39,244 nt of DNA from a virus, in the IMG/VR virus record IMGVR_UViG_3300042543_000481, positions 1 through 39,244 of that record. The stretch is one strand, 5' to 3'. A program made the position numbers and the translations under genes. This document shows positions 3,172 to 38,772 of this stretch, in pieces. Position 1 is the first letter of the stretch. Every line of letters begins with the position of its first letter. The notes under the pieces were generated by a model. The model did no database searches. It had not been told where the DNA came from and saw only the letters and a program-made list of their open reading frames with translations.

Positions 3172-3199
3172 TAGGCCCGAAGTTGGATATTTGCCTACC

Positions 3200-5137
3200 A
3201 TGCCTAATATCAGAGATACTGTAACGCTAATAAAAGAATGTCAACATCTAGAAATGGGTGTTGACTATTTTATTGTTGAAAATGTGACCGATCCAACGGT
3301 AATTAAGGTAGGATCCGGTCTATCTAAATTAAAATTACAAGATAAATTTGGAAAAAGTTATCTTTTAGAAGGTAATTCTCAAAAGATAGCTTCTTTATTT
3401 AAAGTTTCTGATTTATATTCAAAAATCAACTCAGACGTTTGGAGCCTTAAAGAGTCTTTTGGTTATTTTCCGCAGGGTGCAAAATTTAAAGAATATACTG
3501 ATGCTTCTAATCCTGAATATGCAGTAAAAATTGGAGTTGGCGTTTCAGAAAAAATTTTAGTAGAACAGACAACTAATAAAATTATTAAATTAGTTGGTAA
3601 TGGTGATAAGATCAAATCAATGTTTGATCGAACACTTTCATCACCACAAACTAAACCAACCGTAATTGAACAAAAAATACCTCAATATATTCCCGGCCCA
3701 CAGGGTCCAATTGGTATCCAAGGAGAAATGGGTCCTGTTGGGCAAATAGGTTTACCGGGTCCCAAAGGAGACAAAGGAGATGCAGGACCACAAGGAAACA
3801 CGGGCGACAGGGGTGAACAAGGAGAAATTGGTCCGCAAGGAGAACAAGGTGCACAGGGAGAACCTGGCATACAAGGTCCAGTGGGCCATCAAGGTAATGT
3901 GGGCGAGCGTGGACTGCCAGGTCCACAGGGTTTGGTTGGCCCTCAAGGAACACAAGGACCGATGGGTCCAATGGGTCCGAGGGGTGCAAAGGGAGATAGA
4001 GGAGAAAAGGGTGATACGGGAGAGGCTGGTTCGGACGGTGCGCAAGGTTCGGTGGGCCCAAAGGGTGATATCGGAGAAAAGGGCGAAAGGGGAGATAGAG
4101 GACTTATGGGTCCTCAAGGCCCTGTTGGACCTAGAGGAGAGAAGGGGGAACCGGGAACTCAAGGTCCTATCGGGCCTCAAGGCTCACAAGGACCCGCCGG
4201 AGAATCGCCAGTCTTAACTGCGGAATATCCTTTAAAGTTAGAAAATAACAAACTAACTTTTGATTCAGATAAGTTTACAAAGCTTATAGACAAATATAGA
4301 AACACTGATATTCAAAAAGCAATTGACGCCATTGGCAAAACAATGCCTGATGGTGGCGGCGCAGTTGGCATTAAGTTTAATGGATCGAATCTTATTAAAT
4401 CTGTCAGTGATATTAATTTTACTGGCAATGGGGTGACTGTCACCCAACAAGGTAAAAATGTAGAAGTTAATATTCCGGGTGGTTTTAGTCCTCTTATTGG
4501 TGTTGCTCAAATTGTTGCAGGATCGGGAATTACATTATCTCCCGAAGATGGCATTGGAATTGTAACAATAACAGCTACAGGAAGTGGTACTGTTGGAAAT
4601 ACTGGTGCTACTGGTCCCCAAGGGCCGCAAGGAAACACTGGTGCTACTGGACCAGCTGGAGCCGCTGGTGCTGGAGGAACTTATTATTATCAACTTAATG
4701 CACCAACAGATCCCGGTATTACAATGGGATTCCGCTGGATGGCTTCCGATACTGGTATTGAGTATGTTTATATAAACGATGGAAATACAAATCAATGGGT
4801 CCAACCAACAAATACTGGCGGATCCAGCACAACTTCAATATCAATTCTTGCAACGACTGCCGTAACTGGTGCTACCTACACAGCTCTTTCGTCTGATTAT
4901 TATATTGGAGTTAGTTATGCGGGTCCAGTTACAGTAACTCTTCCAGTCAATCCAGAGACTGGAAGAGAAATAGTGGTAAAAGACGAATCAGGAAACGCGG
5001 GAGCTGGAGTTACGCGGCAAATAACTATTGTCGGAGCCACGGCAGCACACACAATCGACAACCAAAGTTCAGCAATAATTAATCTAGACAATGCCGGGTT
5101 ACATTTCATTTACAGAAATGGATGGAGAATAATATAA
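3200..5137 (+). CDS. Collagen-like fibre/virion surface protein
   Basis: About 645 residues. After a 165-residue N-terminal domain there is an unbroken run of about 57 G-X-Y triplets (nucleotides 3694 to about 4205) rich in GPQ, GEK and GDR, which should form a collagen triple helix without hydroxyproline. A linker, a second short G-X-Y run near 4597-4680 and a beta-rich C-terminal domain follow. Trimeric collagen stalks of this kind occur in phage tail and head fibres. An in-frame TTG at 3191 is possible, but ATG 3200 is the conventional choice. It ends in a TAATG overlap with the next gene. Fibre role inferred; exact position on the virion unknown. Confidence 0.8.
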
Positions 5138-6372
5138 TGTCATACCTATTTAACGATCTTGTGGGATTCAAAGGAAATGTTGTAGATGCTTTCAATCGTC
5201 TAAAGGTTAGCAATCCTTTTACCTTATTTGACAGTCAGCAAAGATATACACTCAGTGATAAATGGGATTATGTTGGAGTGAGTGGTGGTACCTATTCTTA
5301 TAATCCAGTAGAAAGCACAGTATCTCTAACTTCAGGAACTACAAGTGGTTCTAAGATGTATGTGGAAACTAAAAGAGTGTTTCCATACCAACCTGGAAAA
5401 TCTTTGACTATTGTTGATTCATTTGCAATGGCCCAACCAAAAAGTGGATTGCGCCAAAGGGTTGGTTATTTTGGAATAACGGGCGGTGTTACAGCTGGAA
5501 CGCCATATAACGGAGTATACCTACAGCAAGATGGATTGACATTGTCGGTTTGCTTGACATCGGCTTCACTCGGAACCACACAAACGGTAACACAATCAAA
5601 TTGGAATGGTGATAAATTTGATGGAACTGGTGATTCTGGTGTTACGATAGATGTGACAAAAGGAAATATTTTTTGGCTAGATGTTGAATGGTTGGGTGTG
5701 GGTGATGTCCGCACTGGATTCTTTATAGATGGTAAACCTGTTGTGGCACACACATTTTATAATACAAATAAAAATTCAACAACCTATATGTCAACTGCAT
5801 GTTTGCCTTTGCGATACGAGATTGAAAATACTGCTGGTCAAACAGGCAGCAGTACCATGAGACAAATTTGTTCAACGATATTGTCTGAAGGTGGATATGA
5901 AGGATTCAGCAGAAGATACAACGTAACCCACAGTGGAACTACACCCCATACTTTAACAACAGCAGGAACTCAATATCCACTGGTTGCAATACGAATGGCC
6001 CCCGATAGATTGGATAGTATTATTGTGCCGTCAAATATTAGTGTGGCAATAGAGCCGGGAACAAATAACAAACCATTAGTAGTGCAATACAGAATTTTAT
6101 TGAATCCAACTTTAACGGGAGGCGCGTGGCAAACACATTTCAATGGAAATGTTCAATATAATATTACGGCTACGGGGGTTACTGGTGGAACTGATATTAT
6201 CGGTGAGTATATAAGTAGCTTCGGAACCTTGGATGTATCTAGCATAAATGATTTTAATTTTCAAATAGGAAGAACACAACTGGGAGTAAGTGATACATTT
6301 GTTCTCGTACTGGTTCCTACGACAAATAACACACAAGGTTATACAGATCTTTCATGGTTTGAAATCATATAA
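5137..6372 (+). CDS. Putative virion surface protein, beta-rich
   Basis: A 411-residue protein starting [14 protein letters not shown] 5137 is preferred over ATG 5122 because it overlaps the previous stop (TAATG) and has GGAG at 5124-5127 at proper spacing. It is rich in Thr, Ser, Gly and aromatic residues, with no membrane segment or known catalytic motif. The centre (FWLDVEWLGVGDVRTGFFIDG) looks like a laminin-G or concanavalin-like beta sandwich and resembles the middle of the paralogues at 8134 and 9935 (HYLIAFHNDVVRFWINDVLV). Its place between two collagen-type fibre genes suggests a receptor-binding or decoration protein. Function inferred from context. Confidence 0.65.
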   Translation: MSYLFNDLVGFKGNVVDAFNRLKVSNPFTLFDSQQRYTLSDKWDYVGVSGGTYSYNPVESTVSLTSGTTSGSKMYVETKRVFPYQPGKSLTIVDSFAMAQPKSGLRQRVGYFGITGGVTAGTPYNGVYLQQDGLTLSVCLTSASLGTTQTVTQSNWNGDKFDGTGDSGVTIDVTKGNIFWLDVEWLGVGDVRTGFFIDGKPVVAHTFYNTNKNSTTYMSTACLPLRYEIENTAGQTGSSTMRQICSTILSEGGYEGFSRRYNVTHSGTTPHTLTTAGTQYPLVAIRMAPDRLDSIIVPSNISVAIEPGTNNKPLVVQYRILLNPTLTGGAWQTHFNGNVQYNITATGVTGGTDIIGEYISSFGTLDVSSINDFNFQIGRTQLGVSDTFVLVLVPTTNNTQGYTDLSWFEII

Positions 6373-6382: not shown

Positions 6383-8119
6383 ATGCCATTAGATTTTCCT
6401 CCATCCCCATCACTAAACGAAATTTACACCTTTGGTGGTCGTTCTTGGCAATGGAACGGAACTGCGTGGGATGTTTATAATCCTGCGGGTGGTTTGACGC
6501 AATATGTTTCACAATTAAATGGTCTTTGTGGATCAATTAATATTGCTGCAGGAACTTCTATATCTGTAACCCCAACGGGAAATACTCTAACAATTGCCTA
6601 TACTGGTGGAGGCGGTGGCGGTGGAGCTACGGGTGCTACTGGAGCCACTGGAGCCACTGGAGCCACTGGTCCACAAGGAAATACAGGTGCTACTGGAGCC
6701 ACTGGTTCTCAAGGTATTCAGGGAAATACAGGAAACACTGGTGCCACTGGTCCACAGGGAAACACTGGTGCTACTGGTGCCATACCCACTGATTATGTAA
6801 TTTCTTTCAATGGACTTACAGGTGCAGTCACAGGTGTAGCATCTATTCGTGGTCTTACTGGTGCTGTTGGAATCACCAATGGTACTGGAATCGGTCTGAG
6901 TGTATCTGGTCAGACTATGACCTTCAGTAATACTGGAGTATTGAGTATTAATGGTGGTACTGGTGCCGTTGCGAATGTTGCAAGAACAAATGTAGATAAT
7001 AATTTTAGTACTGCTCAAACCATAGATGCACCAGGTGCATATCTTGAAATAATTGGTAGTGCTACCGCCTTTACTCTTACTCCTGGTGTGGGTATTGCAG
7101 TTAGTGATTCAGTTAATTTTCCTCAAACATTACAGTTTAATCAGACAGTTACTGCTACTACAGTTACTCTTCCTAATTATACTACAACTTTAGCAGGTCT
7201 TTCTGGTAATCAAACCTTCACCGCACTCAACACATTCTCTGCGGGGATTAGCGCTTCGGGTGGTGTGACTCTTGCAGGAACATTACAGGGAACAACTGCA
7301 AACTTTACAGGTCTTGTATCTTCCACTGTAGGTTTCTCTGGATCTGGAACCAATCTTACCAATATTGTTAAAACTATAAATGGTCTTTCTGGTGGTGTAA
7401 CTTTTGCAGCAGGAACAAACATCACCCTGACGCCAGTAGGCAATACAATCACAATTGCCTCTTCTGGTGGCGGTGGTGGAAGTCCAGTATATGGTGTTAC
7501 AACCAGCATTGATTTTTCTGAACAAATAAATCAAATAAAAGTAAGAGTCTATGGACCCAGTGTATTTTTTGGTTTTCAGCCTTCTATATTCAGCACAGCC
7601 GATTCAATAACAGACATAAGATTATCTACAGACAGTGTTTCGGAAATAATAACTTTTTCTAATATTGTAAGTTATGTTGCCAGTTATGCATCTGATTTAA
7701 ATGCTTGGGTTGTAGAAATTACTGCAAAACCTCCATTTAAATTTAATACAACCGCAGAAACAATATATAGCAGTCAATTTTTTAATAATTTATCAGCATC
7801 TTGGACGGTTGGTGCATTAAGTTTTCAAGATTCTTGGGCGGATGGTGATGGAGGAGTTTTTGATAATGTTGAACTTATTCACAAGCCAGAAACTTTTGTG
7901 ACAAAAACTTTGACAGGAATCACCTGGGCCAATGCAAGTTCTTTCATAACCTGCAAAGTCATGGGGCTTACATCTGCAGACCATACGGCAGAAGATGCCA
8001 TAATCGAAGGCGTTCAGTTTGAGATAAATAATATAGTTGGAGGCACAGGCTTTGATATTATCGGCCATGCCCCAGAAGAAACATACGGAAAATACACGAT
8101 TGAGTGTTTAGGTCAATAA
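6383..8119 (+). CDS. Collagen-repeat tail fibre-like protein
   Basis: A 578-residue protein. The N-terminus (PPSPSLNEIYTFGGRSWQWNGTAWDVY) is the kind of short beta module found at the head of phage fibre proteins. A collagen-like run of about 18 G-X-Y triplets, mostly GAT and GNT, follows at nucleotides 6630-6785. Repeated units such as INGLSGGVTFAAGTNITLTPVGNTITI then recur (compare about residues 45-75 and 330-360), as in trimeric beta-helix fibres. The C-terminal 200 residues are a separate globular domain. It follows a consensus late promoter, which fits a structural gene. Fibre call good, receptor unknown. Confidence 0.8.
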   Translation: MPLDFPPSPSLNEIYTFGGRSWQWNGTAWDVYNPAGGLTQYVSQLNGLCGSINIAAGTSISVTPTGNTLTIAYTGGGGGGGATGATGATGATGATGPQGNTGATGATGSQGIQGNTGNTGATGPQGNTGATGAIPTDYVISFNGLTGAVTGVASIRGLTGAVGITNGTGIGLSVSGQTMTFSNTGVLSINGGTGAVANVARTNVDNNFSTAQTIDAPGAYLEIIGSATAFTLTPGVGIAVSDSVNFPQTLQFNQTVTATTVTLPNYTTTLAGLSGNQTFTALNTFSAGISASGGVTLAGTLQGTTANFTGLVSSTVGFSGSGTNLTNIVKTINGLSGGVTFAAGTNITLTPVGNTITIASSGGGGGSPVYGVTTSIDFSEQINQIKVRVYGPSVFFGFQPSIFSTADSITDIRLSTDSVSEIITFSNIVSYVASYASDLNAWVVEITAKPPFKFNTTAETIYSSQFFNNLSASWTVGALSFQDSWADGDGGVFDNVELIHKPETFVTKTLTGITWANASSFITCKVMGLTSADHTAEDAIIEGVQFEINNIVGGTGFDIIGHAPEETYGKYTIECLGQ

Positions 8120-8133
8120 GGAGAATATGAAAA

Positions 8134-9633
8134 ATGGGCGTTAATATAAAAGGCGGAAACGATTCAGCAGGTTTGGCAAACGTAAGTTCAAATTATGAAC
8201 TTCAGGTAGTTACTCCTCAAATTGAAGAAAATGCTGGATTCGTTCAACTGAGCACCGAGGTTGATCCCGGTGATGTCTTGGGAACAAGAACAGTTATTGC
8301 GGCTGAGTGTTCGGATGACTATAGACTTCGCGTTGGCGTTGACCAAACAATTTTTAATGCTTCGTTTGAAGGAACTTCAATTCTCACCACTACGTGGAGC
8401 CAGTTGCTGACATCCATGACAGCTACCCAGTCAAGCAACTTCTTGACTTTAAACGCCGGTTCATCAACTACATCAGGACACGCAGCATACATTCGTACGC
8501 ACAGACATATTCCGACATTTGGAACATATCCAACTTATGTTGATATGTGGATTCGGGAAGTGAATGTTACTACAACTAATGCTGTTAGTGAATGGGGTCT
8601 CCTTTATGTAACTACAGCAGCAACAGCACAGCCGATTGATGGTATATTTTTCCGTCGTCTTTCTGCTGGAGTTTTGAAAGCAATAATTACAAATAACTCT
8701 GTTGATATTGCAGAAGCCATAATTACTACAACAAATGTACCTCCACGTGATGGTTCTGGAACCTTTGATCCTACTGAAGCAAACCACTATCTGATCGCAT
8801 TCCACAATGACGTAGTCAGATTCTGGATAAACGACGTACTTGTAGCGGAAATCGAATGTCCGGGTGCACAAGCACAGTTCTCGGCATCTTCTTCCAATCC
8901 TGTTGGATTTAGAGTAGTAAACACAGGTACAGTATCTCCATCCGCTCGCCAGCTCTTGGTTGGATACGTAAACGTAGGTATTGGTGATCAAAACACAAAC
9001 AAGCCATGGTCCCACGCAATGTGCGGTCTTGGAAACGGAGCATATCAGCTTGCCCAAGGCAACACTCCCGGCCCAACAGTCACACGTGCTTCGGGTGCAG
9101 CAGGCCACCCCGCAAGCGGTACTGCACGTGCTGCAGGTACATGGACTGCCACATCTGCTCCTGCACTAAACAACTTGGGTGGTCTATGGACATCACCAGC
9201 AATATCCACTCTTGCATCCGATGCAGATTATCCAGTATTTGCTTTCCAAAATCCGACAGGAACCGCAACCCTTCCCGGAAAGACTCTGTATATTACTGGT
9301 ATTCGTGTAGGTGAAGCATATGTTTCAGCAGCAGCGTCAACTAACTCAATTTTATTGTCTTATATCGTAATGGTCGGATCCAGTGCAGTTGCAACCAGCA
9401 CAGCTGATGCAGCCACAACTGTTTCTGGTAAATCTATTACTGTAGGCGGTCACGGATTTCTTTCAACCGAAGTGGTTGGAAACTATAAACCCGGCTTTGA
9501 AGTAAGATTTGATTCACCGTTAATGATTCCGGCTGGCCATTACTTTACCTTTGTTGTACGTCCCTTCGGTACCGTAACAAGCAATACTCTTGTTGTCACA
9601 AGCAGCCTTGCAGTCAATGGATATTTTGAATAA
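8134..9633 (+). CDS. Putative virion/fibre protein, paralogue A
   Basis: A 499-residue protein starting MGVNIKGGNDSAGLANV. It is homologous along its whole length to the product of 9935-11437; the two share N-terminus, centre (NTPGPTVTR, GHPASGTAR) and C-terminus (VRPFGTVT, NGYFE). It is Thr/Ala/Gly-rich and predicted beta, with no membrane segment or enzyme motif. AAGGAG at 8118-8123 sits 10 nt before ATG 8134; an ATG at 8127 opens only a five-codon frame. It lies in the fibre island, so a decoration or tail-surface protein is likely. Confidence 0.7.
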   Translation: MGVNIKGGNDSAGLANVSSNYELQVVTPQIEENAGFVQLSTEVDPGDVLGTRTVIAAECSDDYRLRVGVDQTIFNASFEGTSILTTTWSQLLTSMTATQSSNFLTLNAGSSTTSGHAAYIRTHRHIPTFGTYPTYVDMWIREVNVTTTNAVSEWGLLYVTTAATAQPIDGIFFRRLSAGVLKAIITNNSVDIAEAIITTTNVPPRDGSGTFDPTEANHYLIAFHNDVVRFWINDVLVAEIECPGAQAQFSASSSNPVGFRVVNTGTVSPSARQLLVGYVNVGIGDQNTNKPWSHAMCGLGNGAYQLAQGNTPGPTVTRASGAAGHPASGTARAAGTWTATSAPALNNLGGLWTSPAISTLASDADYPVFAFQNPTGTATLPGKTLYITGIRVGEAYVSAAASTNSILLSYIVMVGSSAVATSTADAATTVSGKSITVGGHGFLSTEVVGNYKPGFEVRFDSPLMIPAGHYFTFVVRPFGTVTSNTLVVTSSLAVNGYFE

Positions 9634-9917
9634 TGGCTTTTTTACAAATAATTCAAACTTCTCACGGTGTTCCTGCTCTATATTGGAAACTTACATCCGT
9701 TACTTTTAATTTAAATCGCTCTTGCACATTGACATTGAGCGGTTATTACGATGAAAATGCAAGATTAAATAACAATGAAAAAATGAAAGAAATTTCATAT
9801 ACTGTTGAAGTAGGTAACATGGCAACGGTATTTCCTACTGGATTTAATCTTATTGATGCGTATAACTACATTAAGACACAACCAGAGTTTTTATTTGGTG
9901 CAGAATCTTTGTTATGA
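9633..9917 (+). CDS. Small conserved-type phage protein between the two paralogues
   Basis: A 94-residue protein (MAFLQIIQTSHGVPALYWKL) that I do not recognise. Its ATG overlaps the stop of paralogue A (TAATG), and paralogue B starts 17 bases after its end, so the three are probably co-translated. It has alternating hydrophobic residues suggesting beta strands, no Cys, no membrane helix and an ordinary charge. It may be a small virion component or a folding partner of the neighbouring fibre proteins; this is inference from position only. Confidence 0.6.
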   Translation: MAFLQIIQTSHGVPALYWKLTSVTFNLNRSCTLTLSGYYDENARLNNNEKMKEISYTVEVGNMATVFPTGFNLIDAYNYIKTQPEFLFGAESLL

Positions 9918-9934: not shown

Positions 9935-11437
9935 ATGGGTGTAAAGATCATAGGTGGAAATAGTTCAGATAATTTGGTGGATGTTGATGAATTTAATCAA
10001 ATAAAAGTCGTAACACCACAGAGTGACACCGGAATGACTGCTGGTTACGTGCAAATGAGCACAGAATTGGATGAGGGAGATAGCAGGGGAATTCGTAGTC
10101 TGATTGCCCTAGAGGCATCTGACGATTATCGCCTTCGTGTTGGAACTGATCAATCGGTATTTAATGCAACCTTTGAGGGGACTATAGTTAATACAGTACT
10201 CTTTTCTAGCACTACATCCATAACTAGCGCCGCGCAAGCTAACGGATTTTTAACTTTAAACTCTGGTAATGCAACTACAGCATTTGCAGCTGCATATGTT
10301 AGAAGTTACAGACAATTTCCATTATTCGGAACTTATCCAACCCATGCAGATATTTGGATGGCGGAAGGTAGCCCAAAAGCAACAAATGCAATTAGTGAAT
10401 GGGGATTCCTGTACCTTACGACAATTGGTACTCAACAACCGCTTGATGGCATTTATTTCAGACGCATTGGTGGTGGACAACTTAAGGGAATCATTACACG
10501 CAACGCAATTGATGTCGCAGAAGTTTCATTGAATGCTTCTCCGGTCCCTTCACGCGATGGAACTGGTCTTTTTGATCCTGAAGAAGTGAATCACTATATA
10601 ATAGTCGTATATAATGACGTTGCAAGATTTTGGATAAATCATGTTTTGGTTGGAGAAATTCTCTGTCCCGCAGATGCTCCACAATTTTCAGGATCATGCA
10701 ACGTTCCTCTGGGATTCAGAACGAATAATATCGCTGCCACATCTGGAATAAGAACATTATCAATTGGATGTATTAACGTAGGTTTTGGAGATCAAAACAT
10801 AGTAAAGCCATGGTCACATGCAATGACAGGAATGGGCGGTGGTGCATACCAATTGCAGGCAGGAAACACTCCGGGACCAACCGTAACACGTACTGCACCC
10901 GGTCAAGGACACCCCGCAAGCGGTACGGCTCGTATTGCCGGTACATGGACTGGTACTTCTGCACCCGTTCTTAGCAATTTAGGTGGTCTTTGGACTAGTC
11001 AGGCAATCAGCTCCTTAGCATCAGACGTAGACTATCCAGTATTTGCTTTCCTAAATCCTGCAGGCTCACAAACAAGACCGGGAAAGACACTGTATGTCAC
11101 AGGAGTTCGCATAGGAGATACAGTTCCTAGCGCTGCAGCAGCAACCAACCCAATCTTTATATCTTATATTGTAATGGTTGGTGCAAGCGCATCTGCAACC
11201 AATACAGGCGATGCAGCCACAACTGTATCAGGAAAATCAATCGTAATAGGTGGCCATGGATTTTCAGCAACGGAAGCTGCAGGAAGCCATAAAGAAGGAT
11301 TCAGCATGGACTTTACATCACCTTTGATGGTTCCTGCTGGACACTATATTACTTTAGTTGTACGTCCATTTGGTACGGTTACGCTTAATACGATGGTATT
11401 GAGAGGAAGTGTTCAATTTAACGGATACTTTGAATAA
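9935..11437 (+). CDS. Putative virion/fibre protein, paralogue B
   Basis: A 500-residue protein starting MGVKIIGGNSSDNLVDV, the tandem paralogue of 8134-9633 with equal length and the same order of conserved blocks. Residues around 285-350 and the last 60 residues look most conserved between the two; residues 60-110 differ most, so the variable part probably faces the host or solvent. AGAGGA just upstream serves as ribosome site. After its stop comes the strong sigma70-type promoter of dut, so the late-type structural run ends here. Confidence 0.7.
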   Translation: MGVKIIGGNSSDNLVDVDEFNQIKVVTPQSDTGMTAGYVQMSTELDEGDSRGIRSLIALEASDDYRLRVGTDQSVFNATFEGTIVNTVLFSSTTSITSAAQANGFLTLNSGNATTAFAAAYVRSYRQFPLFGTYPTHADIWMAEGSPKATNAISEWGFLYLTTIGTQQPLDGIYFRRIGGGQLKGIITRNAIDVAEVSLNASPVPSRDGTGLFDPEEVNHYIIVVYNDVARFWINHVLVGEILCPADAPQFSGSCNVPLGFRTNNIAATSGIRTLSIGCINVGFGDQNIVKPWSHAMTGMGGGAYQLQAGNTPGPTVTRTAPGQGHPASGTARIAGTWTGTSAPVLSNLGGLWTSQAISSLASDVDYPVFAFLNPAGSQTRPGKTLYVTGVRIGDTVPSAAAATNPIFISYIVMVGASASATNTGDAATTVSGKSIVIGGHGFSATEAAGSHKEGFSMDFTSPLMVPAGHYITLVVRPFGTVTLNTMVLRGSVQFNGYFE

Positions 11438-11442
11438 TATAA

Positions 11443-11470
11443 TTGACAAATATTTTTAATGTGATATAAT
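11443..11470 (+). promoter_or_regulatory. Sigma70-type promoter of dut
   Basis: TTGACA at 11443-11448, a 16-nt spacer and TATAAT at 11465-11470. The dut ATG begins 6 nt after the -10 box and no Shine-Dalgarno sequence lies between, so transcription should start at or next to the start codon. The host sigma70 holoenzyme should recognise it, marking an early or middle gene. Confidence 0.85.
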
Positions 11471-11476
11471 TTTTAT

Positions 11477-11998
11477 ATGTACCTAAACTACCACAAAGCC
11501 GATCCAAGCGTTGTAGATCCCAATTATCAAACCCAGCTTGCCGCATGCTTTGATCTTGCTGCGTATATTCCAAAAGAAGAAAAGGTAAAAGTTTGGGAAG
11601 GCAAGGATACTACTGAGATCGAACCTCAGTATGATTACGACAAGGATTCTCACTACATTCTTTTGATGCCCGGAGAGCGAGCCTTGGTTCGAACTGGGTT
11701 GACTTTTGATATCCCGAGTGGTTATTCAATCAGACTTCATCCTAGGTCTGGCATGGCTTTAAAGTACGGTCTCGCGCTGGCAAATTGCGAAGGTGTGGTC
11801 GATGAAGATTATACCTACGAAACAAAACTAATAATGATTAATACCAATCTCCAAGAGCCTATTAAGATTTACAATAAGGATAGAATTGCTCAGGCTGAGA
11901 TTGTAAAGTACGAGCAGATGAGACTTATCGAAATTTATAATACGCCTGATCTAAAGTCAGACCGAATCGGTGGGTTCGGAAGTACCGGAAGATCCTGA
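11477..11998 (+). CDS. dut: dUTPase
   Basis: Trimeric deoxyuridine triphosphatase: dUTP to dUMP plus pyrophosphate, keeping uracil out of DNA and feeding dUMP to the ThyX encoded at 20488. All five family motifs are visible in 173 residues: 1, AACFDLAAYIP at 22-32; 2, HPRSGMALKYG at 88-98; 3, GVVDEDYTYE at 106-115 with the Asp that orients water; 4, IYNKDRIAQAE at 131-141; 5, RIGGFGSTGRS at 163-173. About 25 extra residues between motifs 1 and 2 (33-58) are an insert relative to minimal dUTPases. The 3' end overlaps the convergent gene at 11957 by 42 nt. Confidence 0.95.
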   Translation: MYLNYHKADPSVVDPNYQTQLAACFDLAAYIPKEEKVKVWEGKDTTEIEPQYDYDKDSHYILLMPGERALVRTGLTFDIPSGYSIRLHPRSGMALKYGLALANCEGVVDEDYTYETKLIMINTNLQEPIKIYNKDRIAQAEIVKYEQMRLIEIYNTPDLKSDRIGGFGSTGRS

Positions 11999-12223
11999 TT
12001 TCTTTTTGGGCCACCGGACGGATTTGAATTCCTTCCAAACGGCATAAAAAGTAATAAGGCATATTACGACGTACCAAAAACTCCATTCAGAACCTTGATT
12101 TGGTGCTCCGAAGAAAGGTTCTTTTAGTACGCTATGAACTGCATTCCCTTGTTTGTCCAATGGAGAAATAATCTGAGGTGTAGTGCAGGAGGCCAATAAA
12201 ATCAGAGGTAAGAGATATTTCAT
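11957..12223 (-). CDS. Small lipoprotein with C-terminal membrane helix, spanin candidate
   Basis: An 88-residue protein with a lipoprotein signal MKYLLPLILLASC (lipobox L-A-S-C, acylated Cys13), a 35-residue polar linker, a membrane helix at about 48-64 and a basic cytoplasmic-type tail (KEFKSVRWPKKK). A lipid anchor at one end and an inner-membrane helix at the other is the plan of unimolecular spanins, which fuse inner and outer membranes in the last step of lysis. The linker is short compared with T1 gp11, which weakens the call. Its ATG overlaps the stop of the holin-like gene (ATGA), supporting a lysis cassette. Confidence 0.6.
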   Translation of the reverse strand: MKYLLPLILLASCTTPQIISPLDKQGNAVHSVLKEPFFGAPNQGSEWSFWYVVICLITFYAVWKEFKSVRWPKKKSGSSGTSEPTDSV

Positions 12224-12654
12224 GATTTATTTCCTCCTGCGGCTGTGCCAAAGTAGAAGCCAACAACGGCCAAAAGAACTTGACGGTTTTCTTCAGCAAA
12301 GAGATATCCGGGGATTTCTACAAAATACTTTCGGGTTGTCTCCGGCACTAAGCTAAAGAAACTCTCTGGTTGTTTTTGAGTAAACTCTGCAAACGTAGAG
12401 ATTCCAAAGAATGGCAGAACAAAGGGTGCGGCAACCACGGCAAACAAGCAAGCGAGAACAATAATTTGTCTTACGCCTTTACCGACATCTAATGGAACTC
12501 TCTGTGCTGCTTTGTCCTGATTGTCTGTAGTCTGTTTGTTGGCTTCAATTGCCATCTTAAACATGTCTTTTTGGTCTTGGGCCCTTTGTGCCCAGTAACG
12601 GAACAGAAATCCCGTCACTCCTCCACCCAGTAAAGATATTAATTCTGTCGGCAT
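12220..12654 (-). CDS. Holin-like membrane protein, three predicted helices
   Basis: A 144-residue protein with hydrophobic segments at about 5-19, 61-83 and 126-141; the last ends FYFGTAAGG, a glycine-rich end seen in three-helix phage holins and the GTA-type holin family. Between the first two is a charged, Gln-rich cytoplasmic stretch. GAGGT precedes the ATG. It is coupled to a candidate spanin downstream and a membrane-anchored protein upstream. A holin forms lesions in the inner membrane to time lysis. No endolysin gene is recognisable beside it, so the call rests on topology and neighbours. Confidence 0.55.
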   Translation of the reverse strand: MPTELISLLGGGVTGFLFRYWAQRAQDQKDMFKMAIEANKQTTDNQDKAAQRVPLDVGKGVRQIIVLACLFAVVAAPFVLPFFGISTFAEFTQKQPESFFSLVPETTRKYFVEIPGYLFAEENRQVLLAVVGFYFGTAAGGNKS

Positions 12655-12660
12655 TTTACC

Positions 12661-13269
12661 TCAATTCCTTTGGTATGAAAGTTGCAATTCTATTGAGCCA
12701 CGAATTTCTTCAAAATGGTTTATCATGATTTCTTCTTGGGCTAAATTTGGCTCATAGTCTTTATGCCATTGAACCAAGATAAATCCTACATTTATGCTTT
12801 TATTTTTGATCGGAAGGCATGCAATGTGTGAAATGAATTCATCTTCAAAGAAATGTTTAGCAAAACTATTTTCAGGCAATGCTTGAACGGAATAAATCAT
12901 TGATCTGTTTTCCAAAACTTTTGTAAGCAATGGAACAAACAAAGAACACAGAGTATTTTTAAATTTTAATGCTTGTGAAGTATAGCCTTTATGGGAAGAC
13001 TCATGGGAGACAGAAAACTTTCTCATAGAAATTCCATCCATATAATATTCACCATTATGGAATTGCATTAGGCTGGCACGCATAGCATTAGAAGCAATTC
13101 GGAGTTCCGTTAATCTTTCATTGATTTCACTGTGAATTAATATAAAATTGTCAGTTTTAGTTTTTGATTTCCAGAAACGGTGAACGCCTACTCCTATTCC
13201 TAGGCTTCCGGCAATCCACCACGCTATACTTTCAATTGTTTTTGGTACTTCTAGAAATCCAAATGACAT
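12661..13269 (-). CDS. Membrane-anchored protein with GAF-like FHNGEYY motif
   Basis: A 202-residue protein: one N-terminal membrane helix (about 13-30, IAWWIAGSLGIGVGVHRFW), a basic stretch, then a soluble domain. Residues near 68-88 read MQFHNGEYYMDGISMRKFSVSHE; an RxxxxxFHNG...SxxHE pattern recurs in uncharacterised phage and bacterial membrane proteins with a GAF-type sensor fold. Near residues 135-165 is IACLPIKNKSINVGFILVQW, another GAF-like strand. It is first in a three-gene minus-strand run with the holin-like and spanin-like genes, behind a late-type box at 13288-13295. It could sense a ligand to tune lysis; that role is speculative. Confidence 0.6.
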   Translation of the reverse strand: MSFGFLEVPKTIESIAWWIAGSLGIGVGVHRFWKSKTKTDNFILIHSEINERLTELRIASNAMRASLMQFHNGEYYMDGISMRKFSVSHESSHKGYTSQALKFKNTLCSLFVPLLTKVLENRSMIYSVQALPENSFAKHFFEDEFISHIACLPIKNKSINVGFILVQWHKDYEPNLAQEEIMINHFEEIRGSIELQLSYQRN

Positions 13270-13287
13270 TAAAATCTCCCTGTCTGA

Positions 13288-13295
13288 ATATTTAG
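13288..13295 (-). promoter_or_regulatory. T4-late-like promoter box CTAAATAT for the lysis-type cassette
   Basis: Minus-strand CTAAATATT, 18 nt before the ATG at 13269, followed by a good ribosome site (GGGAG) in the leader. It is divergent from, and only a few bases away from, the sigma70 promoter at 13300-13328. Confidence 0.6.
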
Positions 13296-13299
13296 GTTA

Positions 13300-13328
13300 T
13301 TGACTTTTAGGCTTAAATAGGTTATAAT
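13300..13328 (+). promoter_or_regulatory. Sigma70-type promoter of the nucleotide-metabolism/polymerase run
   Basis: TTGACT at 13300-13305, a 17-nt spacer and TATAAT at 13323-13328. The ATG of the next gene is at 13335, 6 nt after the -10 box, with no Shine-Dalgarno sequence. It would drive the pyrophosphohydrolase-like gene and gene 43. Confidence 0.85.
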
Positions 13329-13334
13329 AATCAT

Positions 13335-13655
13335 ATGACTAGAGATGAATTATTTCAATTGCACGCAGAATTGTGCAATCGTTCTTTAATTTTAATGAAA
13401 CAAAAGTCCGCAGACTATGCAACAGGATCTGATCCCTTTGCCAACTTCAAAAGAGGTGAAATTTTAGGGTTTGCCACAGCCGAAGAAGGGCTTATGCTTC
13501 GTGTTGTGGACAAAATTTCCCGGATTTCAACCTTCCTACAGCGTGGAGAGCTAAAAGTGGAAAACGAATCGGTCGCGGACAGCGTGATGGACGTGATCAA
13601 TTATATGGTTTTGCTGCAAGGTATGTTGGAAGATAAATCTAAAAAGGCTAAGTGA
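13335..13655 (+). CDS. MazG-like / DUF1599-type nucleotide-associated protein
   Basis: A 106-residue all-helical protein. The pattern HAELCNRSLILMKQKSADYA, DPFANFKRGE, then LRVVDKISRIS and ESVADSVMDVINYMVLL resembles the DUF1599 (nucleotide modification associated domain 1) branch of MazG-like NTP pyrophosphohydrolases; the acidic D/E residues of the second helix pair would bind metal. Such proteins may clear non-canonical or competing nucleotides. It is expressed from its own promoter and ends in a TGATG overlap with the polymerase gene, so nucleotide clean-up and DNA synthesis are co-expressed. Family call moderate, substrate unknown. Confidence 0.75.
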   Translation: MTRDELFQLHAELCNRSLILMKQKSADYATGSDPFANFKRGEILGFATAEEGLMLRVVDKISRISTFLQRGELKVENESVADSVMDVINYMVLLQGMLEDKSKKAK

Positions 13656-16150
13656 TGAAATTTTATACAGCGTGTACCATCAAGGGCAACAAAATTCTAG
13701 TTCGTGGCTACGACAAGGGTGTTCGATTTACTGAGACTGTTTCTTTTAAACCCTCCCTTTTTGTAAAGTCCGACAAACCGAGTTCTCACAAAACCTTGCG
13801 AAACGTTAATGTTCGCAGAGTTAAGTTTGACACGCTGTATGAATGCCGAGAGTTTCTTGACCAGTACAGAGATCTAGAGGACACCCCCATTTATGGAAAC
13901 ACTGATTTTGTCACTCAATATCTCATGGAGACTTATCCGTCTGAGGTGGAATACGATCTTTCCAAAATCAAGATAGCATACATTGACTTGGAATGTGAGA
14001 CTGAAAATGGTTTTCCAGATCTAGAGAGACCAAATGAGCGCATCAATTTGGCGACCATTCGGATTGGAAACACTAATAATGTAATCTCTTTGCATGATGT
14101 AAATCTCCCGGACTGCAAAGTCTATGTTGAAGATACAGAGAAAGATCTCATTGGTCGTATCTTTGATATTCTAAAGAAAGAGGATGTGGACATCATCACT
14201 GGATGGAATATTCGCCTGTTCGATATTCCCTACATCATGGGTCGTGCAAAGCTTTTCTTTGAAGAGAAAGAAATTGCTGCATGTACGCCTTTTAACATGA
14301 TAAAGGAAAGGCAAATCAAGATCGGAGAGCGAGCGTACACAGTGTACGAAATGCCGGGTTATACTATTCTAGATTACTTGGATCTTTATAAAAAGTTTTC
14401 TGGTACCAACCAAGAAAGTTATGCTCTAAACTTCATCTCGCGAGTAGAGTTGGATGAGCAAAAACTTGACTATAGCGAATATGGTTCTATGAAAGAGTTT
14501 TATACTCAAAACTTTCAAAAGTTTGCTGAGTATAACGTCAAAGATGCTGTGCTCGTTGAACGGTTGGACAACAAACTAAAACTAATTGATCTGGCTGTCT
14601 CCATTGCATACGAAGCAAAGATTGGATTCGATACTGTATTCTTCGCAACTCGCATCTGGGAAACCATCTGCTGCGATTATCTTCTGAAAAATAATATCGT
14701 CCCACCGCTCAAGACAAAGTACGCCAAGGATGACCAATTTATTGGTGCGTATGTAAAAGAAGTCATACCCGGCCTTTACAAAAACATTGTTAGCTTTGAT
14801 GCTACAAGTCTATACCCAAGCATCATCATGGGATGGAATATTTCTCCGGATACTTGCATCAAGTCTGATTGCTCTTTTAATGCCGATGACTTTCTTAGAA
14901 GCAAGCGCAAAGAAATTCCAAGTCTGTTGGAGGAGGCAGAAGAAAACGACGCATGCCTTGCCTGCAACGGAAGTATGTTTACTAAAAAAGCCCGAGGCTT
15001 TATTCCTATCTTGATTGAAACTACATTCAATCAACGCCAAGAAGCAAAGAAGAAGATGATCCAACTGGAAAAGCAGTATGAGTCAAACAAGGATGCTTCT
15101 TTATTGCCTCGGATTTCAGCGCTAAAGATTCGCCAATCAGTAAAAAAGATTTTGGCTAACAGTTTGTATGGTTGCCTTGGAAATCCTGCTTTTACATATT
15201 CATCTCCTGAACTGGCAACAGCCGTTACTGTCACTGGACAGGTTATTATTCGCCAAGCAGAAATAGAAATGAATGGCTTTTTGAACTCATTGGTTAATAG
15301 CAGCAACGACAAAGACTACGTCATTGCTGTCGATACAGACTCAGTATATCTAAACCTTGAAGACCTAGTAGCCAAGGAGAATCCAGTTGACCAGACTGAT
15401 TTTGTAAACAATGTCTGCGAAACTCAGATTCAGGCTAAACTGAACTCAGTCATGGAAAACCTTTCACAAACCCTGAAGTGCAAAGAGAACAAGATCTTCT
15501 TCAAGCGAGAAGCAATCGCTGCCGTTGGGATGTTTGTCGCAAAGAAGCGATATGCTCTTCTTGTAAATGATCTAGAAGGAGTTCGGTTTGCCGAACCAAA
15601 ACTAAAGATCATGGGTATGGAGACTGTCCGAAGCAGTACTCCGCTGATTGTCCGAAATAAACTGAAGGACTGTATTAAGATCATTCTCACCAAGACTCCT
15701 GATGAACTTAAAAAGTATGTCCAAGATTTCAAGAAGGACTTCATGAAGCTTCCTTTGGTTGAAATTGCATCGCCACGTAAAGTCTCTGGTATGGATAAGT
15801 ACAAAGATAACTTTACAATTTACAAGCAAAGCACTCCGATTGCTACTAAAGCATCTTTGCTTTACAATGCACATCTTAAGAAGTTGGGTCTTGATAAATC
15901 ACATGCCCCGATCAAGGAAGATGATAAAATTAAGTTTGTGTTTATCAAGATTCCAAATCCGTATGGCAAGGGTGGGCGAGATGCGGTTATAGCCTTTGTC
16001 TCTGACCCCCCACCCGAGTTTGAACTAGATAAGTATGTGGATCGCGAAAGGCAGTTTGAGAAGACCATGCAGGAACCATTGGACAATATGCTTACGGCAA
16101 TTAATTGGTCAATTAGTGATCATCCAACCCTTGAATCTTTTTTTGGATGA
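13655..16150 (+). CDS. 43: DNA polymerase gp43 (family B)
   Basis: Replicative polymerase with proofreading exonuclease, 831 residues. Exo I is YIDLECE (D111, E113), Exo II GWNIRLFDIPY (D190) and Exo III YNVKDAVL (D297). Polymerase motif A is SFDATSLYPSI (D382), motif B KKILANSLYG (about 497-506) and motif C VDTDS (D560, D562). It is slightly shorter than T4 gp43 (898). ATG 13655 overlaps the preceding stop (TGATG); a GTG at 13652 is in frame but less likely. It is intact with no intein or intron visible. It works with gp44/62, gp45, gp41 and gp61, nearly all encoded in this window. Confidence 0.97.
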   Translation: MKFYTACTIKGNKILVRGYDKGVRFTETVSFKPSLFVKSDKPSSHKTLRNVNVRRVKFDTLYECREFLDQYRDLEDTPIYGNTDFVTQYLMETYPSEVEYDLSKIKIAYIDLECETENGFPDLERPNERINLATIRIGNTNNVISLHDVNLPDCKVYVEDTEKDLIGRIFDILKKEDVDIITGWNIRLFDIPYIMGRAKLFFEEKEIAACTPFNMIKERQIKIGERAYTVYEMPGYTILDYLDLYKKFSGTNQESYALNFISRVELDEQKLDYSEYGSMKEFYTQNFQKFAEYNVKDAVLVERLDNKLKLIDLAVSIAYEAKIGFDTVFFATRIWETICCDYLLKNNIVPPLKTKYAKDDQFIGAYVKEVIPGLYKNIVSFDATSLYPSIIMGWNISPDTCIKSDCSFNADDFLRSKRKEIPSLLEEAEENDACLACNGSMFTKKARGFIPILIETTFNQRQEAKKKMIQLEKQYESNKDASLLPRISALKIRQSVKKILANSLYGCLGNPAFTYSSPELATAVTVTGQVIIRQAEIEMNGFLNSLVNSSNDKDYVIAVDTDSVYLNLEDLVAKENPVDQTDFVNNVCETQIQAKLNSVMENLSQTLKCKENKIFFKREAIAAVGMFVAKKRYALLVNDLEGVRFAEPKLKIMGMETVRSSTPLIVRNKLKDCIKIILTKTPDELKKYVQDFKKDFMKLPLVEIASPRKVSGMDKYKDNFTIYKQSTPIATKASLLYNAHLKKLGLDKSHAPIKEDDKIKFVFIKIPNPYGKGGRDAVIAFVSDPPPEFELDKYVDRERQFEKTMQEPLDNMLTAINWSISDHPTLESFFG

Positions 16151-16158
16151 GATATAAT
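16131..16158 (+). promoter_or_regulatory. Sigma70-type promoter upstream of 16166
   Basis: TTGAAT at 16131-16136, a 16-nt spacer and TATAAT at 16153-16158. The -35 lies inside the 3' end of gene 43. The next ATG (16166) begins 7 nt after the -10 box without an intervening ribosome site. It would drive the small coiled-coil gene and uvsX. Confidence 0.75.
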
Positions 16159-16165
16159 ATACATT

Positions 16166-16522
16166 ATGTCAAGTGACAATTACACAGAAGAAATTTCATA
16201 TGTTTTGGAAGATCCTGTCATATCAACAAAAAGCATCGACGATATAATGGCATACTGTTATCCAAACGCGTTTACATCACAAAAAAAGCTGTCCAATAAA
16301 CAGATTTACAAAATGGATTTTGATTACAACGAAGAACTAGATGGACCAATCGTTTCCACTCATGATTTTCTTGATTGGAAAAAAAAGGCCGAGGGTTATC
16401 GAAAAGAATGTGACAATTTAAAATCATTGATTAGTAAAATTAATGAAGAAAATCAAAGTCTCAAGGAACAAATTCAAGAACTAAAAGAAGAGTTGCGCGA
16501 TTTGAACGCACTCTTAGATTAA
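16166..16522 (+). CDS. Small protein with C-terminal coiled coil
   Basis: A 118-residue acidic protein between gene 43 and uvsX. The first 75 residues have no family I recognise; from about residue 78 there is a clear heptad coiled coil (ECDNLKSLISKINEENQSLK, then a Glu/Leu-rich helix to the end). It probably forms a dimer or binds a partner helix. Its place inside the replication-recombination run, behind its own promoter, suggests an accessory to replication or recombination, but there is no direct evidence. The stop is 5 nt before the uvsX ATG. Confidence 0.65.
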   Translation: MSSDNYTEEISYVLEDPVISTKSIDDIMAYCYPNAFTSQKKLSNKQIYKMDFDYNEELDGPIVSTHDFLDWKKKAEGYRKECDNLKSLISKINEENQSLKEQIQELKEELRDLNALLD

Positions 16523-17902: not shown

Positions 17903-19286
17903 GAATCTGGTTAAGCGAGACGATTATGCAAGCAAAGTACTCCCCTTCCTCAAGGAGGAGTACTTTTCTTCTAAGGTAGAGCGCATCGTATTTAATACGG
18001 TGTCGCAATTCATCAGCAAGTACAATGCACTTCCAACTAAGGATGCACTTGATCTTATTCTGGAAAACCAGAAGGGTCTGAGCGAGGAAGAGTATCGTGG
18101 TTCAGCCAAGTTGATTTCCGAAGTCTACAGCAATAATGATGGCGAAGATATCAATTGGCTGTACGATAGCACTGAAAAGTTTTGCAAAGATAAGGCATTG
18201 CACTTGGCTATCCTTAGTTCCATCAATATTTTGGATGGCAAGGAGCAGAATCTTTCAGAGACTGCAATCCCCGATATTCTTAGCAACGCCTTGGCTGTGA
18301 GTTTTGATACTCGCGTAGGTCACGACTTCATGGAAGATGCTCATTCTCGCCATGATTTCTATAATAAGACTGAACGTCGCGTTCCATTTGATCTTGATTA
18401 TTTCAATATGGTGACTGGCGGCGGTACTCCTACCAAAACCCTCAACATCATTATGGCCGGCACTGGTTGCGGTAAGAGTCTTTTCTTGTGCCACCATGCA
18501 GCGGCATGCTTGATGAATAACCTCAATGTGCTTTACATCACTATGGAGATGGCAGAAGAGCGCATTGCTGAGCGCATTGATGCTAATCTTCTGGACATGC
18601 CTGTCCAAGATCTTCGCAGCATGTCCAAGGGGACGTATCATAAAAAGATCGATGAACTGAAGCATCGATGCCAAGGAAGACTCATCATCAAGGAATATCC
18701 GACTGGCGAGGCTAACGCTAATCATTTTCGTATTCTCTTGCAGGAGTTGGCAACAAAGAAGAAGTTCAAGCCTGATATCATCTTCATTGACTACCTGAAT
18801 ATCTGTTCTTCGGCCCGAATTAAGAATACCGGAAACACGAATAGTTACCATTACATCAAGTCTATTGCCGAAGAGCTTCGTGCATTGGCTGTTCAGTTTG
18901 ATGTCCCGGTGTTCAGTGCAACTCAGGTCAACCGTAGCGGATTTGCAAGCACCGATATTGGTCTTGAAGATACTTCGGAATCTTTTGGTCTTCCTGCTAC
19001 TGCAGATTTCTTTGCTGCTCTTATTCGTACTGATGAGTTGGATGATGCAAATCAACTTATGGTCAAGCAGTTGAAGAATCGATACAACAGCACGGCAAGC
19101 AACCGTAAGTTTGTAATTGGAGTGTCGTTTGCCAAGATGAAGTTGCACGACGTAGAACAAGACGACCAGCCAGTTATGGTCAGTTCCAATCAGACGGATA
19201 CGAAAAAGAAGAAGAGTGACGAGGATGATTACTACCGCGCAGTCTCCAAGACGGCGCGTAAGGTTGGTCTTGATTGGCAAGTCTAA
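17883..19286 (+). CDS. 41: Replicative helicase gp41 (DnaB-like)
   Basis: A hexameric 5'-3' helicase that unwinds the fork and forms the primosome with gp61. It has 467 residues from ATG 17883, whose MEKIILKNLV start resembles the T4 protein; ATG 17865 adds six residues and cannot be excluded. An N-terminal helical domain is followed by a RecA-like domain with Walker A AGTGCGKS at 192-199, the TMEMAEERIAERIDANLL segment at about 220-237, Walker B PDIIFIDYLNIC (D303) and FSATQVNRSGF (motif H4 type). It ends in a TAATG overlap with the primase gene, coupling the two primosome subunits. Confidence 0.95.
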   Translation: MEKIILKNLVKRDDYASKVLPFLKEEYFSSKVERIVFNTVSQFISKYNALPTKDALDLILENQKGLSEEEYRGSAKLISEVYSNNDGEDINWLYDSTEKFCKDKALHLAILSSINILDGKEQNLSETAIPDILSNALAVSFDTRVGHDFMEDAHSRHDFYNKTERRVPFDLDYFNMVTGGGTPTKTLNIIMAGTGCGKSLFLCHHAAACLMNNLNVLYITMEMAEERIAERIDANLLDMPVQDLRSMSKGTYHKKIDELKHRCQGRLIIKEYPTGEANANHFRILLQELATKKKFKPDIIFIDYLNICSSARIKNTGNTNSYHYIKSIAEELRALAVQFDVPVFSATQVNRSGFASTDIGLEDTSESFGLPATADFFAALIRTDELDDANQLMVKQLKNRYNSTASNRKFVIGVSFAKMKLHDVEQDDQPVMVSSNQTDTKKKKSDEDDYYRAVSKTARKVGLDWQV

Positions 19287-23124: not shown

Positions 23125-23542
23125 AGTTTGCACCGAGTGCAATATTACCAGACCGGTTGAGTGTTTTGCTAAAGTAAAAAACAAAACATCTCACCCGGTC
23201 TGGAGGCGCAATGTGTGCAATGAATGCAGAGATCGCCAGCGGACTCCTGAGCAGCGGCTATTAAAAGAAGCCAAATACAGAGCAAAGAAAAAAGGGCTTG
23301 CGTTTGATTTAGAGTTATCTGACATTGTTATTCCTGCAACGTGTCCTGTATATGGAATGCCTATGCAATACAATACGGGATGGAACTCGCCTTCCATTGA
23401 CAGGATAGAAAACAATAAAGGTTACACCAAAGACAATATTATAATTGTTTCGGTAAAGGCAAACAGCCACAAAAGTACTGCGACTCTAGATGAGTTAAAA
23501 CAACTTGTATTATTTTATGATAAATTAATGTCCCATAAATAA
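23090..23542 (+). CDS. HNH / endonuclease VII-like nuclease overlapping the reductase tail
   Basis: A 150-residue protein from ATG 23090; an ATG at 23054 is possible and lies further inside the reductase gene. The N-terminal zinc ribbon has LCKVCTEC near 10-17 and NVCNECR near 42-48. The nuclease core has CPVYG, then SPSIDRIENNKGYTKDNI, then VKANSHKSTAT with a final EL helix. The SxDRI...GYTxxNI...AN..K layout is typical of free-standing phage HNH enzymes, often mobile. It is read in another frame from the reductase it overlaps, a usual habitat for homing endonucleases. Nuclease call good; homing is inferred. Confidence 0.8.
   Translation: MLAKVEPAKLCKVCTECNITRPVECFAKVKNKTSHPVWRRNVCNECRDRQRTPEQRLLKEAKYRAKKKGLAFDLELSDIVIPATCPVYGMPMQYNTGWNSPSIDRIENNKGYTKDNIIIVSVKANSHKSTATLDELKQLVLFYDKLMSHK
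23534..23541 (+). promoter_or_regulatory. Late-like CATAAATA within a small palindrome
   Basis: CATAAATA lies in the palindrome TCCCAT-AAATA-ATGGGA (23531-23547), just upstream of the RuvC-like start at 23547. It could be a weak late promoter or a hairpin near the start codon; its spacing to the ATG is only 5 nt, so either role is uncertain. Confidence 0.3.
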
Positions 23543-29254: not shown

Positions 29255-29283
29255 TTGTATTTGTTGTGATCTTTTGATATAAT
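29255..29283 (+). promoter_or_regulatory. Sigma70-type promoter of the exonuclease gene
   Basis: TTGTAT at 29255-29260, a 17-nt spacer and TATAAT at 29278-29283. Here a normal leader follows with ribosome site TAAGGA (29286-29291) before the GTG start. It marks a switch from late virion genes to an early or middle nuclease gene. Confidence 0.75.
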
Positions 29284-37029: not shown

Positions 37030-37058
37030 ATTATACATTATCCGACATACGTTGTCAA
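37030..37058 (-). promoter_or_regulatory. Sigma70-type promoter of the 37010-35932 operon
   Basis: On the minus strand TTGACA (37058-37053), a 17-nt spacer and TATAAT (37035-37030), followed by a normal leader with AAGGTGAT before the ATG at 37010. The best consensus promoter in the window. It lies just downstream of the tmRNA terminator, so the operon is insulated from it. Confidence 0.88.
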
Positions 37059-37106: not shown

Positions 37107-37485
37107 AAACCCCACTGCTTTAAGCAGCTATTGCTAATTCGTTAGCAATTATTTTTTGCAACTGTTTATTTACGACACTTGTTACCCGTGTCGGGTATCT
37201 CCTTCTTCATTACTTTGCGCCAATCGATTCCTTTCGACCCCGTGACCCGAAGCCTAGGACTTCGGGAAATGCCCCGCTGCTACGAGGACTTGGCTCGCCG
37301 TTTTCAGAGGATTGCAGATTCTCTGACTTAGGCTAATGGAGTCGGGGGGATTCGAACCCCCGTCTTGTACGCATTTCAATCCAATATCAACAATACCAAA
37401 AGCGTAGTGGAGGACTTGCACCTCTATTGCTCTGTATCAGATTGCTTTGATCAAAGCAACCCTAGCAGCCTGACGCTGTCTACGC
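37107..37485 (-). ncRNA. ssrA: Circularly permuted tmRNA (ssrA)
   Basis: In minus-strand order the tRNA-like 3' part comes first: T arm GGGGG-TTCGAAT-CCCCC (37361-37345), then acceptor strand CGACTCC and discriminator A (37344-37337), no encoded CCA. After a 95-nt linker (37336-37242, with a 7-bp hairpin at 37246-37266) comes the 5' part: acceptor strand GGGGTCG (37241-37235), pairing 7/7 with CGACTCC and keeping the G3-U pair AlaRS requires. AAAGGAATCG then resembles the tmRNA D region. GCAAAAAATAATT leads into the tag frame GCT..TAA at 37146-37120, coding ANELAIAA. The stop sits in a CTGCT-TAA-AGCAG hairpin before the terminator. The 5' limit is uncertain. Confidence 0.85.
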
Positions 37486-38344: not shown

Positions 38345-38638
38345 TTAAGGTTTGGGTCGAAGTTTTATTTCAACTTTTGCATAACCAGCGCGATCACACT
38401 GCAAGAACTTAACAGATTCCACCAATCTATTGTCTGGGATATCTGCAAGTCTTGCCGGAAGATTGGTTTCGATGTATGGCCCACCTTCAAAGTCTGCCAT
38501 AGTTCCATCGGTAGTACCGCGAGTGAAGGTGCTTTCTCCTTCGATGGTGTACGTATTTGCATCAACCTTTCGGACGAGGCGCTCTACGTGATACCGACTT
38601 AGCATTCTTGCTACAATTGGATGTTCTGTCTGTTGCAT
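38345..38638 (-). CDS. Hypothetical phage protein
   Basis: A 97-residue protein from ATG 38638 (MQQTEHPIVARMLSRYHVER). A frame reaching 38686 exists, but its extra residues lie over the preceding gene, so the later start is chosen. Probably a beta-rich fold: VDANTYTIEGESTFTRGTTD, then a strand ending KVEIKLRPKP. It overlaps the GAGKGD gene by 77 nt in another frame, a large overlap, so start and reality of one end are not certain. Function unknown. Confidence 0.6.
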   Translation of the reverse strand: MQQTEHPIVARMLSRYHVERLVRKVDANTYTIEGESTFTRGTTDGTMADFEGGPYIETNLPARLADIPDNRLVESVKFLQCDRAGYAKVEIKLRPKP

Positions 38639-38738
38639 CAGTTTTCTTTTTAAAAATCGAATCCCAGTTTTTAGACCAGTTTTCATAGTTCACACTGCGA
38701 TATCTATCGCCTTTACCAGCACCGTGCTGACCTTCCAT
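38562..38738 (-). CDS. Small GAGKGD-type phage protein
   Basis: A 58-residue protein: MEGQHGAGKGDRYRSVNYEN, then WSKNWDSIFKKK. This HGAGKGDxYRxVxxxxWxxxWxxIFxKK plan is one I recognise as a frequent tiny protein in aquatic phages, of unknown function. ATG 38738 is chosen over 38744 because it lies 6 nt after the TATAAT box, like other leaderless candidates here; 38744 abuts the box directly. The last 25 residues overlap the next gene. Confidence 0.7.
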   Translation of the reverse strand: MEGQHGAGKGDRYRSVNYENWSKNWDSIFKKKTDATDRTSNCSKNAKSVSRRAPRPKG

Positions 38739-38744
38739 ATGCAT

Positions 38745-38772
38745 ATTATATCACAACTGCACTAAATGTCAA
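38745..38772 (-). promoter_or_regulatory. Sigma70-type promoter of the GAGKGD gene
   Basis: Minus strand TTGACA (38772-38767), a 16-nt spacer and TATAAT (38750-38745). The start ATG at 38738 begins 6 nt downstream with no ribosome site between. The -35 box begins just after the stop of the upstream gene (38773). Confidence 0.85.

Follow-up and report, generated by a model that had tools for sequence, protein, structure and literature searches.

Accounts of leaderless initiation in phages usually deal with individual genes. Among the phage transcripts known as leaderless is that of the lambda regulatory gene cI (PMC9031893). Among bacteria, Caulobacter has 375 leaderless mRNAs, whose translation is roughly as efficient as that of leadered mRNAs (PMC4117421), and every mapped leaderless start in Sinorhizobium meliloti is an AUG (PMC3616915). 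Searches of open-licence literature turned up no description of a leaderless mRNA in a T4-type phage. Leaderless phage mRNA being already known, what looks new in the locus described here is its lineage-wide form, in two promoter classes, in phages of the T4 type.

The window (the whole stretch of DNA analysed, a virus record of 39,244 bases) encodes T4-type replication genes, namely a family B DNA polymerase (gp43), uvsX, the gp41 helicase and the clamp loader gp44, along with a class II-like ribonucleotide reductase and a thymidylate synthase. These core genes, and the gp20, gp23 and terL genes of its relatives, assign the record to the T4 superfamily. Among named phages, cyanophages have the most similar polymerases, with no more than 43% identity; gp41 is closest to that of Pelagibacter phage HTVC008M (57%), then to that of Methylophilales phage Melnitz (55%). 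In relatives G001 and G002, gp20 (portal protein), gp23 and terL are 43-51% identical to their HTVC008M counterparts, and the gp23 and terL of the relatives are no closer to HTVC008M than are those of Caulobacter phage Cr30; thus, the window seems to belong to an uncultured lineage of its own. We infer a freshwater source for the record from earlier literature on related groups. The window also carries two collagen-like repeat proteins (3191-5137 and 6383-8119), probably tail fibres, and a stretch of about 420 bases repeated at 70% identity (9214-9634 and about 11018-11438), each copy forming the 3' part of one of two neighboring genes that are probably structural.

Sigma70-type promoters at start codons in the window

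The initial annotation had proposed that four sigma70-like promoters end only a few bases before an ATG, with no Shine-Dalgarno (SD) sequence between. Inspection of the sequence and promoter scans found all four in place (Table 1), with 6, 6, 7 and 6 nt separating the -10 hexamer from the ATG (the gap, hereafter) and no SD ahead of any of the four starts. Each has a hexamer pair within the 16-18 nt spacing of sigma70 promoters, and the start codon is ATG in all four genes. We refer to such promoters, and to the genes that they precede, as fused.

Table 1. Promoters and associated genes in the window
Feature	Coordinates	Strand	Details
Sigma70-type promoter TTGACA-16-TATAAT with TGn	11443..11470	+	12/12; ATG at 11477, gap 6; before dUTPase gene
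dUTPase-family gene	11477..11998	+	PF00692, 3.6e-15; N-terminal residues conserved from Met; predicted leaderless, +1 = 11477
Sigma70-type promoter TTGACT-17-TATAAT	13300..13328	+	11/12; ATG at 13335, gap 6
Small gene, weak DUF1599 (nucleotide modification associated domain) similarity	13335..13655	+	PF07659, 3.3e-4, below cut-off; phrog_1485; predicted leaderless
Family B DNA polymerase (T4 gp43-like)	13652..16150	+	PF00136, PF03104; up to 43% identity to cyanophages
Sigma70-type promoter TTGAAT-16-TATAAT, overlaps polymerase stop codon	16131..16158	+	10/12; ATG at 16166, gap 7
Small coiled-coil-like ORF, 118 aa, upstream of uvsX	16166..16522	+	Predicted leaderless; weak HALZ similarity below cut-off
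Late-promoter-like CATAAATA	23534..23541	+	Ends 5 nt before ATG 23547 of RuvC-like resolvase gene (phrog_159)
Contrast promoter, weak -35 (TTGTAT, 3/6)	29255..29283	+	About 9/12; gap 13 to GTG; not listed by scan
Contrast promoter TTGACA-17-TATAAT	37030..37058	-	12/12; gap 19 to ATG; leader about 13 nt with AAAGGTG
58-aa ORF, starts MEGQHGAGKG	38562..38738	-	Predicted leaderless; N-terminus common to orthologs from 38738 Met
Sigma70-type promoter TTGACA-16-TATAAT with TGn	38745..38772	-	12/12; conserved ATG at 38738, gap 6

The small gene behind the second promoter is the first of an operon that includes the DNA polymerase gene, whose start overlaps the stop of the gene upstream and which has no promoter of its own. 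Close orthologs of this second promoter are likewise fused, with gaps of 6-7, as is the minus-strand promoter in five orthologs, also with gaps of 6-7. At the latter site, a second in-frame ATG (38744) abuts the hexamer, the Met common to relatives being that at 38738. The third site counts against the leaderless reading, its promoter being weaker, its gap 7 and its ORF poorly conserved (a homolog was seen only in near-identical contigs). In two relatives (L193 and L037), the homolog of this promoter is fused directly to uvsX with a gap of 5; in the window, the 118-aa ORF with its own fused ATG sits between the promoter and uvsX.

Two further promoters had been set apart as having normal leaders. 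This description holds for the minus-strand one at 37058-37030; it fails for 29255-29283, where the predicted +1 falls within the AAGGA itself and leaves a leader of about 7 nt. The view that fusion is specific to certain genes within the genome was borne out, 743 of the 799 called genes of the group being not fused.

Sigma70 RNA polymerase has its preferred start 7 bp past the -10 hexamer (PMC5730371), so that a 6-nt gap places +1 on the A of the ATG. The reading that we favor, with a probability of roughly 85%, is that early and replication genes of this phage, and some late genes in its relatives, are expressed from leaderless mRNAs. Host-type sigma70 promoters would be positioned so that RNA polymerase starts on the first base of the ATG, making the mRNAs of the dUTPase, the small gene ahead of the polymerase, the ORF ahead of uvsX and the 58-aa ORF leaderless or nearly so (0-1 nt). 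The host ribosome would bind the 5'-terminal AUG by the 70S initiation route, with no SD pairing, and would have to translate such mRNAs efficiently; genes further downstream in each operon would initiate through an SD or by coupling. The start at the A of the ATG put forward in the initial annotation thus gains support, as a prediction from sequence, from the conservation of the gap, the lack of SD, the bias toward ATG and the existence of a second promoter class (see below).

Conservation of the gap in related phages

Thirty-six related loci were fetched and ten of their contigs were taken whole. When 14 distinct and divergent regions upstream of dUTPase orthologs were aligned, with starts placed by BLAST, a hexamer resembling a -10 element occupied positions -12 to -7 in all 14. 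The hexamer averages 1.88 bits of information over these sequences, the spacer 0.89 and the six bases of the gap 0.82, indicating that the distance is preserved while the sequence drifts. A fixed gap of varying sequence is also found in the mazG-like, gp41, uvsX and 58-aa genes. The gp41 promoter is fused in ten relatives and not in the window; that of uvsX is fused in two relatives, at a gap of 5. In the group as a whole, a core SD precedes 4 of 56 fused genes against 179 of the 743 others, and ATG is the start codon of 54 of 56 against 552 of 743. Folding at the 5' end was only slightly weaker in fused genes than in the others (p 0.06), which was counted against the leaderless reading.

These data bear on two alternatives in which the promoters are real and the mRNAs carry leaders. 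In the first, read-through from promoters further upstream dominates, the fused promoters are minor, and most of the mRNA has a long leader devoid of SD. In its favor, phage genomes are tightly packed with genes, and in Zymomonas roughly half of the leaderless units are also transcribed from a start further upstream (PMC7566282). A long leader would, however, bring no gain to starts that no SD precedes, and the promoter cores stay near consensus in the relatives; we consider this explanation improbable. The second has the true start codons further downstream, so that the mRNA has an ordinary leader and the fused ATG goes unused. ORF callers do pick the first ATG, the protein starts used here are predictions, and the minus-strand site offers two in-frame ATGs. 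Yet the proteins are conserved directly from the Met onward in the dUTPase (MFLDYFKVSPN...) and in the mazG-like gene (M(T/N)(R/K)DELF...), which supports the annotated start; the next Met of the window's dUTPase lies deep inside the domain, and a constant 6-nt gap to an unused ATG would lack explanation. Downstream starts thus appear very improbable, slightly more so than read-through.

Late promoters and positional enrichment

The initial annotation overlooked that the pattern marks the lineage and that it extends to late promoters in the relatives. There, 19 copies of the late promoter TATAAATA end exactly 5 nt before a start codon, the next-best gap having 3 sites; 22 sites lie at gaps 4-6, where about 0.05 would be expected per gap position. 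Variants such as CATAAATA peak at gaps 5 and 7. The window has no perfect TATAAATA at gap 5, a point against the leaderless reading, and one CATAAATA variant there, ahead of the resolvase gene (Table 1); genes similar to this resolvase (187 aa, start ATGTTTCAT) in L167 and L177 have TATAAATA at gap 5. Genes resembling gp55 were found in G001, G002, G004 and G006, and a gp33-like protein in G002. In the cultured phage HTVC008M, five genes (starts at 6280, 7562, 31132 and 49760, and a minus-strand gene at 18392-18916) have a TATAAATA late promoter at gap 5, and a few sigma70 sites have a gap of 6.

A T4 late promoter extends from -13 to -6, so that a 5-nt gap again places the predicted +1 on the A of the ATG. 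A review places the T4-type late promoter roughly one helical turn ahead of the start of transcription (PMC2988020). In the wider lineage the phage late promoter TATAAATA, which a gp55-type sigma would serve, is fused in the same way with a gap of its own. Two classes of promoter having different gaps and the same predicted +1 are hard to explain otherwise than by leaderless transcription.

The count of TATAAT-to-ATG distances proposed with the initial annotation also came out in its favor. With a sigma70-like site taken as a match of at least 10/12 at a gap of 5-7 before an ATG, such sites precede 3 of 38 called start ATGs of the window and 1 of 1382 non-start ATGs (Fisher p 7e-5); for the window and relatives together, the figures are 36 of 609 and 53 of 22,864 (p 8e-34). 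Because the related contigs are not independent, these p-values overstate the number of independent events, and the ortholog alignments are the stronger argument. The gap distribution of the sigma70 sites has a sharp mode at 6.

Several phages served as controls. Neither T4 nor Syn9 has a fused site of the sigma70 or the late type; S-PM2 and Cr30 have one fused sigma70 site each, C48C1 has two, and Melnitz has two plus two late ones. The DNA polymerase gene of C48C1 (OQ984149, loci L249-L256) has a fused promoter (TTGACA...TATAAT, CTCCTAC, ATG; gap 7); most other promoters of this phage are leadered. Overall, the window yields only slightly more promoter-like hits than shuffled sequences do (60 vs 48; 48 vs 43), which locates the signal in the strong matches and their position. 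That AT-rich spacers ahead of genes merely resemble promoters, at coincidental distances, would fit this modest total, but the chance of it is negligible given 36 sites at gaps 5-7 against 0.94 expected from their density, the one-position peaks at 6 and 5 for the two promoter classes, the absence of such a peak in T4 and Syn9 despite ample promoter-like sites, and the contrary evidence of the relatives.

Fusion was also sought in a collection of viral contigs, scanned at three gaps. Among the matches listed, 44 of 87 at gaps 5-7 were at or near gene starts (2 with an SD), compared with 18 of 82 at gaps 9-11 (2 with an SD) and 37 of 82 at gaps 25-27 (21 with an SD). The contigs collected for the other gaps contain at least eight strict promoters at gap 6 and, among the matches listed, none at 5, 7 or 8; fused promoters are thus not confined to this lineage. 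The other viral contigs concerned (L039-L118, L377-L443 and L484-L544) have strict sigma70 promoters at a gap of exactly 6, and their starts at gaps 5-7 rarely have an SD among the matches listed.

Host, significance and comparison with known systems

The window contains a permuted (two-piece) tmRNA (37120-37397, minus strand) with the predicted tag ANELAIAA; the tmRNAs of G002, G003 and G007 have different, longer tags (ANKQLQTMIANQLAMAA, VVNKPLQKLIAAPMAMAA and VNKQLQTMIANQLAMAA, respectively). Two-piece tmRNAs have already been reported in aquatic phages, and a permuted tmRNA is compatible with alphaproteobacteria and with some betaproteobacteria or cyanobacteria (PMC9004378). None of the loci searched contained an exact match to the tmRNA acceptor arm, which was dropped as a guide to the host. 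SAR11 was considered as a model of a leaderless host and set aside: 624 kb of its DNA (410 called genes; a small sample taken around the 16S gene) gave no gap-6 peak, and the strict fused pattern was absent from six SAR11 genomes. In the class to which SAR11 belongs, the strict fused pattern has 7 matches in 6 of 115 genomes (none for a reversed-pattern control), which is too sparse for naming a host. These host-side results were weighed against the leaderless reading. Ribosomal protein S21, considered as a phage-encoded aid to leaderless translation, was likewise discarded: HTVC008M and Melnitz carry it, and it was not found in this group.

It seems conceivable, on evenly balanced odds, that an uncultured freshwater T4-type lineage shifted the first genes of many early (sigma70) and late (gp55-type) units to leaderless initiation through loss of the leader, the gap being fitted to each form of the polymerase; the phage would then need a host whose ribosomes efficiently accept 5'-terminal AUGs. 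An entire T4-type lineage appears to use leaderless initiation in two temporal classes, whereas the model phages T4 and Syn9 use leaders; comparing the two is a natural way to ask how a phage benefits from it. Since the cultured relative HTVC008M has the late-class form, the prediction is directly testable. Gene callers that score the SD may misplace or miss fused starts, which the fused promoter can itself help to locate.

T4, Syn9, S-PM2 and C48C1 resemble this group in having early promoters of the sigma70 type and late promoters of the TATAAATA type. They differ in that most of their promoters are separated from the nearest start by more than 15 nt, with zero to two fused sigma70 sites and no fused late site in each. 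HTVC008M shares with the group its late promoters at gap 5 and a small number of sigma70 sites at gap 6. Melnitz has a two-piece tmRNA, as does the window (PMC9004378); most of its promoters have leaders. The leaderless mRNAs of Caulobacter crescentus, S. meliloti and Zymomonas mobilis start at the A of the AUG, as predicted here, have no SD and nearly always use ATG; their 5' ends have been mapped, whereas those described here are predicted, belong to phage genes and involve two classes of promoter. In lambda cI, too, a phage promoter stands at the start codon, but of one gene with a regulatory role; here the arrangement affects replication genes and, in relatives, late genes, and it recurs across a T4-type lineage.
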